Below, one piece after another: positions 53,201 to 59,200 of a stretch of 64,000 bases of DNA; the first letter of the stretch is position 1; every line of letters begins with the position of its first letter. A program made the translations under genes and the position numbers. Source of the DNA: Desmodesmus armatus (lineage: Eukaryota > Chlorophyta > Chlorophyceae > Sphaeropleales > Scenedesmaceae); assembly GCA_007449985.2 (NCBI GenBank), contig VIIQ02000077.1:186001-250000 (forward strand). The letters are read 5' to 3'. The notes under the pieces are model-generated. The model did not search any database and was not told the origin of the DNA. It worked only from the letters and a program-made list of their open reading frames with translations.

Positions 53201-56200
53201 CCATAGGGGGGAGAACCTGCGTTGGAGGGGGGGGGGGATGCCAGGACAAAACCGTTACAGTGAAAAAGTGAGCAACAAAAATACATGTGGCAGTTTGCTG
53301 AGTGAGGGCTTCACCCAATGCCTTGGCAGCAGGCTGCCATAGGGTGGAGAACCTGCGCGGGGGGGGGGGGGTGCACAAATCCGTATGATAGTTGTCTCAA
53401 GTGAGGTATTCTGTTCCCAAACATGCTCTGAAGCCCCAAACAGATGCAGCATTCTTGTCTATACCCAGGTACTCAAACACACAAGTACCAAAACACACAG
53501 CAGCGATCAATCCAAAACAAATAGACAGTTAAAAATACCGACATCAGGATGCAAGCGTTGAAATTGAGCTTGTGTCAGACCCTTGTTTCTCCTCAGTCTG
53601 CGTCAACAGTCAGACTGTTGAGCTTGACGTATAAAGGATACAATGTGTCATCAGCCACAAGTTGACCCACCACCTCTCACACTACATGCAGAAGCATAAT
53701 GTCACTCTTTTCATGGTGTTGGCATGATAGTGTGACACTGCACGCACGCCTACACAACCACAATGAGGGCAGTGCAGGGGCACACCTCAACCCACATATT
53801 TTTAGTGATGCAAAGAAAAAAACATGCCACCCTTCAATATGCACTCAGAGACGCTTGTTGCGTCAGACCTTTGTTTCTCCTCAAGCCGCTCACGCAGTCA
53901 GACTGTTGAGCTTGACGTATAAAGGATACACTGTGTCATCATGCGCAAGCAGCACTCACTCACTCACTCACTCACTCACTCACTCACTCACTCACTCACT
54001 CACTCACTCACTCACTTGCTCGCCCACTCACCCACACATCACCCACTCACACATACGCCACGCATACAACCAACCACTCCACCCTCAACCACTCGAGCCC
54101 CCTCACCCCCCCCTCCCTGCTACACCCCCCACCCCACCCACCTGATGTGCAGCACTCCCAGCAGGCCCCCCACCACCGCCGGCAGCAGCAGCAGCGGCAC
54201 CCTCCCATACTCCAGGTGATTAGTCATCCTGTCCAGCGCCACAGACCAGCTGCGCCCAGCCTGGATTGAACACGGCTGCGTGTGCATGTCGCGCAGCACG
54301 CACAGCAAGTCACAGCGCATGCCCTCGAATGCAGCACGCTCATGCCCAGGCTTCTGCCCCTCCTCCTCCTGCTGCTGCTGCTGCTGCTGCTGCTGCTGGG
54401 AGGATGCCGTGGTGAATGGTGGCTGCTCAAAGCAGCACAGCAACCGCAGAGCAGCAGCACGCAGCTCCTGCCGTGGTGTCACTAGTGACGGCAGCAGCAC
54501 CCCAATCACACCTGGCAGCTGATGAACCGACAGCAGCTCCCTTGCGGCTGCCGCCGCTGCTGCTGCTGCTGCTGCTGCTGCTGATGTATCCTCGCCCGTG
54601 CTGCTGCTGCTGCTGCTGAAGCCACCTGGGGCGTCCAGGCGGCCCTCAAGGCCTCAAACACCAGGGCAGCTGAGGAGACAGTGGCAAAATCCAACCGCTG
54701 CTGCTGCTGCTGCTGCTGCTGCTGCTGCAGGAGCCACTGCAGTACCTCAGCCGCCACCTCCGGCAGCTGCTGCGGTGCAACAACAGGCAGCAGCACCGAC
54801 AGCATCTGCAGCACCATACCCCGCAGCTGCAGCAGCTCACCCACTGACACACTGCTGCCGGTGACGGTGCCGTCACTGCTGCCAGCCGCCGCTGTGGCAG
54901 CAATGGCAGCAGTGGCAGCAGCCAGCACGCTGCTGCATGCATCCACTGCTGCCTCCGGCCTCACAGCAGCATGGGGCAGCAGCTGCAGGGCCGCCCAGCC
55001 CTGCAGCAGCCGCTGCCTGCTGCTGCTGCTGCTGCTGCTGCCATTGCTGCCGGTCACTGCTGCCACACTGCTGCTGCAGTCAGCCGCCATTGCTGCCACA
55101 GCCGCCGCCAGATCGGCACCGCCTGGGTGTGCGGTCAGCAGCAGCGGCAGCGCTCCGGAGCCAAATGCAGCATCCGGCTGCAGAAGGGAGCACACCTCAA
55201 GCAGCCCTGCCAATGCACAGTCAGCCGCCGCCGCATTGCTGCCACTGCTGCCAGCCGCCGCCGCATTGCTGCCAGCCGTCGCTGCCAGCAGCAGCTTGCC
55301 CAGTGCCCCTAGGAGCTGCGGTGCAAACAGCTCCGCAATGGCAGCACTGCCCGGCGGCATTACCACGCCCTGGGTAAACCCTATCAGCTCCTGCCGGGGT
55401 ACAGCTGGCAGGCCCAAAACCCTGGCCCAGCGAGTACAGGGCCCCTTGATAAACCCTAGGCCTTGACTGGCCCCCACCTCCTTGCCGTGTCCCAGGGCAA
55501 TACCCAAGATCAGCTGCAGGGTTGAGTGAGAAAGAGTGAGACCAGTGAGGTCACTCACACACCAGGTGATCTCCCCTGTGTGAGACTGCCGCCACTGCAG
55601 CTGCAGCAACTGCTGCTGCTGCTGCTGCTGCTGCTGCTGCTGAGTGTGTGGATCCGTCCCCTCTGACAAGTCTAGTTGCTGCAGCATATCGACCAACCTG
55701 TCAGTCACTTTGATAAGTGGTCCATAATCCTCCACCCTACTGCCCCTAAAGTAGTGAACAGCCTGGGCTAAGAACAGCACCCCGTAAGCAGCCGTCGACA
55801 GAGCAACCCCCTGCTGCTCATTCTGCTGCTGCTGCTGCTGCTGCTCGCCGTCCACTTGCTGCTCCTGCTGCTGCTGCTCCTCCTCCTGCTGCTGCTGCCG
55901 GCGAGTGCGGGCCCTGCTGCTCTTGCTGCCTCCCTCAGCAGCAGCAGCAGCAGTGGCAGCAGTGGCGGCTGCCTCCACTGCTGCCAGCCGCCGCTGGTTG
56001 GCCGCCAGCAGCACCTCCCATAGGACGTCAGTGCTGCCATTGCCGCGCCGGGTGTGCTGCAGCAGCCGCTCCAACGCAACGGCAGCAACAGCGGCGCAGC
56101 GCAACCGCAGCAGCGCCTCTGTCAGTCCCTTGGGAGGCTTGCTGTTAGAGGCTGGCTTGTCTACTGCTGCTGCTGCTGCTGCTGATGGTGGTGCTGGTGC

Positions 56201-59200
56201 CCCAAAGTCCTGCATGGTGAGGATGTCTTCCTGCAGCAGCAGTGTCAGCACGGCTCCTGCCTTGCTGTGCAGGCGGTGCTCCGGGCCCAGCACAGACTCG
56301 GATATCATGAGGCCAGCACCATGCGCGCGCTCGGGGCTGGGGTTGACTGCAGGAAGTTTGGCGGGAAAGTGAGACAGAAGCAGGAGCAGCAGACAGCTTC
56401 AGTAGGAGAGTTGCAAAGCAAAGAGTGAGAACAGAATGTATGTCAAGAGAATGTCTCTGGCGTGGTTAAGTTTGGATTTGACCAGCAACGGAACAATAGA
56501 ATGGTCATGAACATGAAGTAAGGAGAGAACGGAAACTGTCTGACGTACCTGCATGTTCCGCCAGCAAAGCGCGCAACCCCGCCCGCAAGGACTTGCGAGA
56601 CGCCACGCGCAGTAGGAAGCCAAAAGTTTCGGCCGCGAGCGAGCGCACGTGGTGCTCGGGATGATAGCGCAGGTCTGCGGAGACAACAGTTTGCAGCAAA
56701 CACAACTTGACAATCTCCGAACACACGCTGAAATCTGGGCGAAATCAAAGAAAGAACCATTCGAACAGGTTTCAAACAGCGAAGCTCATGGAGAGCCAGT
56801 GCTCAACTGCAGCTTCAAAGTTGGCTGCTGTCATGACAAGAGCACCAACACCAACACCAACCCACCCTTCTCAGACCTTCTCATACGTACCTTTGGTGTG
56901 TTTGAGTGCTGCCGGCAGTGCTGCTGTGATGGGCTTAGCCAGCACCTTGCACAGCCCTGCTGCTGCATTGAACAGGGCCTGAAGCAGCTCAGGATCGTTA
57001 GAGGCGCCACCACCACCCGGCAGGGGGGCTAGGATCCATGTAAACTGACAGCAGCAGCAGCAGCAGCAGCAGCAGCAGTGGTCTATCTTCAGCCCTTTAC
57101 ACACGAGTAAACCCCAACATGACAATATGCTAGCACCATGAGACCAAATCCAACAGACATGAACGCAGGAAACAGTGCTGCCGGCTGCACCCACAGACCC
57201 CAACACAGACACAGTTTTTATTGTTGCGTCAGACCTTTGTTTCTCCTCAAGCCGCTCACGCAGTCAGACTGTTGAGCTTGACGTATAAAGGATACAATGT
57301 GTCATCATGCGCAAGCAGCAGCACACAGAGACCCATTATCCAGAGAGGGGGGGTGGGTAGGTAGTGAGGAACACAAACAGATAATACGGTCCTGTAAGGT
57401 ACTGTGGCCTCAACAAATCTGAGCAACATAAGGGCACAACATATGTATAGCTATTAAAATGCAACCATGCCGCGCATGAGCTGTCTGATAACACAATTGA
57501 GTGGTGTGCCCATATGCAGGACAAAACCCAGCACGCAAACAACACAGCACAACACCCTTGTGTGTCAGACCCTTGTTTCTCCTCAGTCTGCGTCAGCAGT
57601 CGGACTGTTGAGCTTGACGTATAAGGATACAACGTGTCATCAGCCACACCCCCGGGGTACGGGCCCGTGCTATTGCCCCCTGTTTGCCAATAGTACTACG
57701 GCTGATGCCTTGTCAAACGGCCCACTGAAACACATCGTGAAATCCTGCCAAAACCCGGCCTGCCACCCACCCGCAGCCCCTAATCCAACAGAAAACAGAT
57801 ATTGCCATGGCATATGGTTTGATCCAGGCGCACTCACACACCCACAACGCATGTGTCAGACCCTTGTTTCTCCTCGGTCTGCGTCAGCAGTCAGACTGTT
57901 GAGCTTGACGTATAAGGATACAATGTGTCATCAGCCACACACACCATACCATTGCCATCTGCCAACTACAGCTGACCCTTGTCAAAAGCCCCATTGAGAC
58001 ACAACATGAAACCCTGCTAAAACCGGGCCCTCCACACGCCAGCCGGCCCCAACCCAACAGAAAACAGATGATACTATGGCGTGTGGTTGAAAACCAGGGG
58101 CACCCACACACCCCTAGCATAGCTTGTGTCAGACCCTTGTTTCTCCTCAGTCTGCGTCAGCAGTCAGACTGTTGAGCTTGACGTATAAAGGATGCAACGT
58201 GTCATCAGCCACAAACACACACACCAAACATGCAATGCATGACCCCGCACCATTGCCCAGCTAGTCCCACGAACCCAACCACACCTACCCAACCCAAAGC
58301 ACAAACACAAGTCCTGCCAAGTTAGGAACCAGGAGCCCCAATTCAAACTGCGTAGCAGACACACCGAACCAGCCACCGATCAACACACTGTGCTGTCACA
58401 GCACATGCACATACGTTGTTGCGTCAGACCTTTGTTTCTCCTCAAGCCGCTCACGCAGTCAGACTGTTGAGCTTGACGTATAAAGGATACAATGTGTCAT
58501 CACACGCATGTAGCACACACTCACTCACTCACTCACTCACTCACTCACTCACTCACTCACTCACTAACACGCTCACATCATGCCCCATGTCCTCACAACC
58601 CCCCCCCCCCCAAAAAACCCACATGCTTGATGCAACTCATGTGTTTAACACAGCACCCCACCCCCTGCTTCCTCAATCACACCACCTGGATTCGCCTCAA
58701 CCCACACACACCAAGCCCCTCACCTTCAACCCCCCCCCCCCACCCCCACCACACACACAACCCAAAACACCCCCAGCCCCTCACCTCTCCCACACGCCAG
58801 GTAGCAGCGGAAGCATCTCCTCTTGCAAGTCCCTCGCAGCCGCCACCAGCAGCACAACAACAACAACAACAGCCCCCCCCCCAGCGTCATAAGCACACAC
58901 CACACACCACACACCACACTTTTCCCCCCCCTCCACAAAATATTGCCCCCCCCCCCCCCAAAACCAGTGACAACATCACCTCCCCCACACATCAGCAGTA
59001 GGGCAACATCTCCTCCTGTAAGTCCCTTGCCGCCGCCACCAGCAGCGCAAACACCGTCAACAGATCACACCCAAACCCCCCCCCCACACACACAACACCT
59101 TCACGCCCCCTCCCCCTTGCCTAAAAGGACTCGCCTCTCCCACACATTGGGCAGTAGGGGTAGCATCTCCTCCTGTAAGTCCCTTGCCCCGCCGCCACCA

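Follow-up and report, generated by a model that had tools for sequence, protein, structure and literature searches.

A putative box C/D small nucleolar RNA family in two UTP20 introns of Desmodesmus armatus and its predicted target in 25S ribosomal RNA

The stretch of the Desmodesmus armatus genome analyzed here (contig VIIQ02000077.1, positions 186,001 to 250,000; all 64,000 nucleotides (nt) of it are henceforth called the window) carries seven elements, each 88–89 nt long, on its minus strand between 53571 and 58508, in two introns of the gene for the ribosome-assembly factor UTP20 and in the sense orientation of that gene. Together with an eighth copy on another contig, these elements very probably represent, judging from their sequence, a single box C/D small nucleolar RNA (snoRNA), the D' half of which would guide 2'-O-methylation of the uridine of 25S ribosomal RNA (rRNA) equivalent to U2410 in yeast and U2411 in Arabidopsis. 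The element family is genuine, probably functional and ordinary for green algae. An earlier interpretation of this window, made from the letters alone (the sequence-only reading), had proposed seven box C/D elements on the UTP20 sense strand, and all seven were recovered where it had placed them, with their boxes and terminal stem.

Anatomy of the elements and their predicted 25S target

Read 5' to 3', each element opens with one half of a terminal stem, followed by the C box [ACG]UGAUGA, a spacer, the invariant GUCAAGCUCAACAG, a single U and the D' box; by alignment, the second half comprises a linker, a conserved GAGGAGA, the stretch GAAACAARGGU, the D box CUGA and the remaining half of the stem. 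The linker exists in two versions. Type A is found in c1 (53571..53659; C box 53648-53654, D' guide 53615-53628, D' box 53610-53613, D box 53575-53578), c4 (57561..57648; C box 57637-57643, D' guide 57605-57618, D' box CCGA, D box 57565-57568), c5 (57852..57939; C box 57928-57934, D' guide 57896-57909, D box 57856-57859) and c6 (58125..58213; C box 58202-58208, D' guide 58169-58182, D box 58129-58132). Type B is found in c2 (53859..53947; C box 53936-53942, D' guide 53903-53916, D box 53863-53866), c3 (57225..57313; C box 57302-57308, D' guide 57269-57282, D box 57229-57232) and c7 (58420..58508; C box 58497-58503, D' guide 58464-58477, D box 58424-58427). The combination of [ACG]TGATGA, a 3' CTGA and an exact GTCAAGCTCAACAG is present in all seven window copies, and UGAUGA with CUGA is found in these and in the eighth copy as well. 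When the C box is compared with the form RUGAUGA, the base preceding UGAUGA is A or G in three of the seven window copies and C in the other four. The internal D' box, which had likewise been anticipated, reads CTGA in six copies out of seven, and the 14-nt D' guide preceding it is invariant in all eight. The terminal stem has at least 4 base pairs (bp) in every window copy and 10 bp in the eighth. The alignment additionally offers UGAGGA (CGAGGA in c5) as a candidate C' box, an element that is frequently degenerate in box C/D snoRNAs.

This anatomy is well beyond what the composition of the window would produce by chance. The sequence-only reading had suggested a snoRNA-type scan as a check, and a scan of both strands of the window for TGATGA and CTGA 45–120 nt apart, flanked by a terminal stem of at least 4 bp, returned 13 matches, 11 of which begin inside the seven elements (a full-length match for each copy, three shorter ones and one that extends beyond the end of c2), while the other two are plus-strand matches at other places; in 30 first-order Markov windows there were 1.33 matches on average and never more than 3. 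The similarity among the copies is likewise confined to their bodies, which are 85–99% identical across the 21 pairs, while 38 of 42 comparisons of their flanks fall within the 5–95% range of random stretches (0.52–0.66). Three flanks exceed that range, namely those upstream of c2 and c7 (0.77, a GTGAG repeat), downstream of c5 and c6 (0.76) and upstream of c4 and c5 (0.68), and one comparison lies just under it. Because the likeness is restricted to the body, the copies are probably all functional. The terminal stem was evaluated on an alignment of eight sequences from one genome against slid controls and 500 shuffles, the latter ignoring the relatedness of the copies. In this test 82.1% of the stem cells are paired, a value reached by 2 of the 500 shuffles, and the covariation is 0.408 against a shuffled mean of 0.205 (reached by 3 of 500), with the slid controls at or below 0.143.

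The 14-nt D' guide was compared with the 3' third of yeast 25S rRNA, a reference in which a single offset accommodates 27 of 27 modified positions (the next offset fits 15). Against it, the guide pairs with the conserved segment CUGUUGAGCUUGAC at 14 of 14 positions by Watson-Crick rules, as had been claimed, and the next best site reaches 6, or 9 if G-U pairs are admitted. The D+5 position of this guide is yeast U2410, and since the Arabidopsis numbering in this region is that of yeast plus one (Cm2337/2338, Um2421/2422), the predicted target is Arabidopsis U2411. Thus, the uridine singled out by the D+5 rule in the sequence-only reading coincides with a nucleotide that Table 2 of PMC11542601 gives as 2'-O-methylated in three land plants, the entries being Um2411 for Arabidopsis and Um2413 for both tomato and tobacco. 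That table has no entry at this position for human, yeast or Ostreococcus; for the neighboring Arabidopsis Gm2410 the same source gives an Ostreococcus counterpart, Gm2252, predicted from snoRNAs.

These features suggest a mechanism in which the snoRNA copies would be freed from the UTP20 introns following splicing and the RNA would be bound by fibrillarin and its partners to form a ribonucleoprotein; a fibrillarin gene is present in the same genome in the form of four matching pieces on one contig. The D' half would then pair over 14 nt with CUGUUGAGCUUGAC, and by the D+5 rule the uridine equivalent to yeast U2410 and Arabidopsis U2411 would receive its 2'-O-methyl group. The copies would have been born by local duplication, and their multiplicity may serve to raise the dose of one guide, with the stretch before the 3' D box possibly carrying a degenerate C' box (UGAGGA) and pairing with the 5' half of the RNA.

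Several observations weigh against this interpretation. The D' box of c4 departs from CTGA, as noted above. The genome's own 25S rRNA was not found: a search with a conserved 20-mer that tolerated 2 mismatches at most located 0 places, and a 370-nt yeast 25S query gave no match, an empty answer that is uninformative for that search; the target is accordingly read from yeast rRNA. Two of the five measures of the terminal stem are ordinary, namely the four pairs with two-sided change (reached by 121 of 500 shuffles) and how many pair types occur (reached by 107 of 500), and the outermost two pairs are open in five and four of the eight sequences, respectively. The internal fold is not better than that of shuffled sequences in seven of the eight copies (z from -0.33 to -1.41), c1 standing at -2.57. 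Finally, the Rfam check that the sequence-only reading had also suggested came back empty: a search of the window gave 0 matches at the gathering score, and none of the 93 matches of a relaxed search of 53500-58600 (E up to 10) falls on any copy.

The host gene and the extent of the family

The UTP20 gene spans approximately 38240..61839 on the minus strand of the window, where it is represented by a C-terminal open reading frame (ORF), several UTP20_N pieces and an N-terminal ORF. The C-terminal ORF (38240-40009, minus strand) matches Pfam UTP20_C, and 7 of its 21 homologues carry the name U3 small nucleolar RNA-associated protein 20; the UTP20 homologues include proteins from Gonium, at 35% identity, and from Astrephomene, at 50% across 29% of the query, which would suggest a chlorophycean alga. 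Pfam UTP20_N was detected on three of five minus-strand ORFs tested, collinear with the profile: 45963-48086 (E 5.1e-24), 49611-50651 (E 1.4e-13) and 50860-51396 (E 3.6e-05, below the Pfam cut-off). The minus-strand ORF that separates the two snoRNA introns, 54509-56398, is assigned to UTP20 by the names of its homologues, four of seven being U3 small nucleolar RNA-associated protein 20, at 39–69% identity over all seven; it is without a match in Pfam and among solved structures, and a second ORF compared with solved structures likewise gave no meaningful match. The ORF near 61369-61839, also without a Pfam match, is tentatively placed as the UTP20 N-terminus by resemblance. UTP20 exons between 45963 and 61839 are rich in long CAG/CTG runs encoding poly-Q, poly-A and poly-S.

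The smaller of the two introns (53217..54141, minus strand) holds c2 and c1 and is delimited, by eye, by the donor CATCAG/GTGGGT at 54141 and the acceptor GCAG/GTTCTCC at 53217; this acceptor is in frame and yields the exon joint ...LHI-R-FSPLWQPA... The acceptor and exon start that follow this intron are duplicated (53150-53235 and 53286-53371, 91% over 86 nt), and the copy at 53353 offers it a second 3' splice site. The larger intron (57045..58784, minus strand) holds c7 to c3 and begins with the donor GAGAG/GTGAGG at 58784. It has several candidate acceptors: the nearest, CAG/TTTACA at 57045, breaks the frame with that donor, and AG sites that keep the frame give an exon start at 57129 or 57177. 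Under each of these candidates (57045, 57129, 57177) c3–c7 are intronic, so the proposed location of the elements in two UTP20 introns stands, with respect to both the identity of the host and the position of the copies under all candidate splice sites. The exon preceding the larger intron (58780-59499) is present as five partial tandem copies of 74 nt, 66–89% identical to the reference copy; several of these have a GTGAG-type donor of their own, and some look, by eye, frame-broken.

Across the genome of 115.8 Mb the family has at least eight copies, seven of them within this one gene. Thus, the count of seven given by the sequence-only reading holds for the window, but it overlooked the eighth copy, at G000:C83:8821-8899 (L008), which is on a different contig, intronic and in sense orientation within a Tic22-like gene (Pfam Tic22, E 1.6e-24). 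A pattern search of the genome for the D' guide and its box, with up to 2 mismatches, found 62 places against 12 in the control, and eight of these are the known copies. None of the remaining 54 combines a C box, a D box and a terminal stem (55 sites were scanned), whereas the eighth copy passes the same test; the full anatomy therefore tracks the family. One of the other places, G000:C560:574927-574945 (L056, about 1501-1519), has the exact 14-nt guide followed by TCCGA, without a recognizable snoRNA, and may be a chance match or a relic. A guide match on one viral contig (L009) was set aside as unrelated once the 301-nt stretch around it had been read, and 38 matches at loci with prokaryotic titles were judged from those titles to be chance. 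A tandem repeat array at G000:C439:6000-7400 (L062), with units containing GAAGCTCAACAGGC or a similar sequence, appears by eye to be unrelated to the snoRNA.

The D-side stretch and the alternative explanations

The sequence upstream of the D box invites the question of whether the RNA is a double guide, with GAAACAARGGU serving as a second true guide for some site in rRNA, small nuclear RNA (snRNA) or mRNA, a possibility that we regard as rather doubtful. The stretch is in the canonical place and 11 nt long, and within the window a single base of it (R) varies, between types A and B, so that a G-U pair could allow both types a common target; in the eighth copy, however, it differs at two further positions, the three forms being GAAACAAGGGU in type A, GAAACAAAGGU in type B and GACACUAGGGU in the eighth copy (c8). 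The target search took in the genome itself and, of rRNA, only yeast 18S (18 of 18 sites fitting) and the 3' third of yeast 25S, and this limited coverage of rRNA is a point in favor of a second guide. Within that scope, the longest run against the 25S third is 9 pairs with G-U included, a length that 182 of 300 shuffles match or exceed. Against 18S, with no shuffle control, the longest runs are 9, 9 and 12 for type A, type B and c8, but, counted from the D box, pairing begins no earlier than the 6th, the 6th and the 5th base, respectively, unlike in a working guide. In the genome, an exact 14-mer target occurs only as the antisense of four copies, and allowing up to one mismatch gives 41 matches, of which seven are copies; the remaining 34 equal the 34 of a reversed-pattern control. 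The sequence-only reading had found no target to name for this 3' guide, and the searches of yeast 18S, the 25S 3' third and the alga's own genome, together with the variation of the stretch between copies, lead to the same outcome.

A different role for the D-side stretch is suggested by its folding: in single-strand predictions UUGU..UCCU in the 5' half pairs with AGGA..ACAA of the D-side stretch, and the fold of the alignment draws the same hairpin. No two-sided change is seen in this inner helix, the only 2 of 29 consensus pairs that show any being both in the terminal stem, and the helix is, on these alignments, unproven. A structural or C'-box role is, without proof, somewhat more likely for the D-side stretch than a second guide, and a second rRNA guide it probably is not.

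The number of copies raises a further alternative, namely that only some of them make the snoRNA, the rest being duplicates in decay that owe their likeness to recent duplication or to gene conversion. Some of the duplications do appear recent, as flanking sequence is shared by c4 and c5 (68%), by c5 and c6 (76%) and, in the form of the GTGAG-repeat flank, by c2 and c7 (77%), and the CCGA in the D' box of c4 is what a copy in decay might show. Yet every copy retains its C box, D box, terminal stem and 14-nt guide, several differences in the stem are compensated, and most flanks are at background, which makes this alternative distinctly improbable. A reading of the repeats as mobile or satellite-like, and not as a snoRNA gene family, which seven similar copies inside 5 kb might suggest, is hardly credible and was rejected on copy number, there being at least eight copies in 115.8 Mb, seven of them in one gene and none more among the 54 guide-like sites, and the box anatomy with its rRNA-matching guide being far beyond chance.

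Comparison with known snoRNA systems

Preferring, then, the reading of all copies as one box C/D snoRNA, we note that both its gene type and its layout are known already from PMC7671301 and PMC3511168. According to PMC7671301, most snoRNA genes of Chlamydomonas form multigene families; they are found chiefly in polycistronic clusters and as a rule have multiple isoforms. This paper cites Chen et al. 2008, whose title calls the clusters of Chlamydomonas reinhardtii intronic; PMC3511168, for its part, treats the intragenomic mobility of intronic snoRNAs. The likeness to the C. reinhardtii clusters described there lies in the clustered intronic multigene families with several isoforms, and the difference in that all the clustered copies here belong to one family in one gene. 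A literature search, with Chen et al. 2008 outside its reach, found neither a UTP20-hosted snoRNA cluster nor a guide in the U2411 register described. The present family thereby adds a UTP20-hosted, single-family case to the known intronic snoRNA clusters of green algae.

The same stretch of 25S rRNA is methylated with the help of other snoRNAs, 7 to 11 nt downstream of U2410/U2411: as given in PMC5199042, yeast snR66 and snR78 correspond to Um2417 and Um2421, and as given in PMC8053127, plant SnoR37 corresponds to Um2422. These differ from the UTP20-intron family in both the nucleotide and the guide. The numbering is a trap in this respect, since older papers name the SnoR37 site Um2411 (so in PMC3511168 and PMC8817022).

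A closer comparison is provided by Arabidopsis SnoR29, the D' guide of which acts on the same 25S segment, at the neighboring G2410. According to PMC8053127, no guide accounts for Um2411 under the D+5 rule; the D' guide of SnoR29 has G2410 as its D+5 position and was concluded, with the support of a mutant, to serve U2411 off-rule, and blocking the more abundant variant of SnoR29 lowered methylation at canonical and non-canonical targets, U2411 included according to the authors. The review PMC11542601 disagrees, in that the asterisk of its table, which stands for no snoRNA identified, is attached to Gm2410 and not to Um2411; for the guide of Gm2410 and Um2411 the primary paper was followed over the review table. 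SnoR29 also guides G2392, and none of the three D-guide variants of the algal family places the G2392 region among its three best sites. The guide in the UTP20 introns is shifted by one base relative to that of SnoR29, such that its D+5 position is the U2411 equivalent and not G2410. In light of this, the family is not filed as SnoR29: the two appear to have a target segment in common, and homology between them is not claimed.

The family would provide a testable guide for a 25S ribose methylation known in land plants and unlisted for yeast, human and Ostreococcus. It may also show the same mark being reached through two targeting registers, and we offer, as a tentative idea on which we would not yet rely, that the one 25S mark corresponding to Arabidopsis Um2411 has two routes, this alga setting it under the normal D+5 rule and land plants through the off-rule action of SnoR29. 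If this were true, the mark would have been kept, or gained twice, while the register of the guide moved by one base, and the alga would have built up seven copies of a guide dedicated to it within a single host gene.

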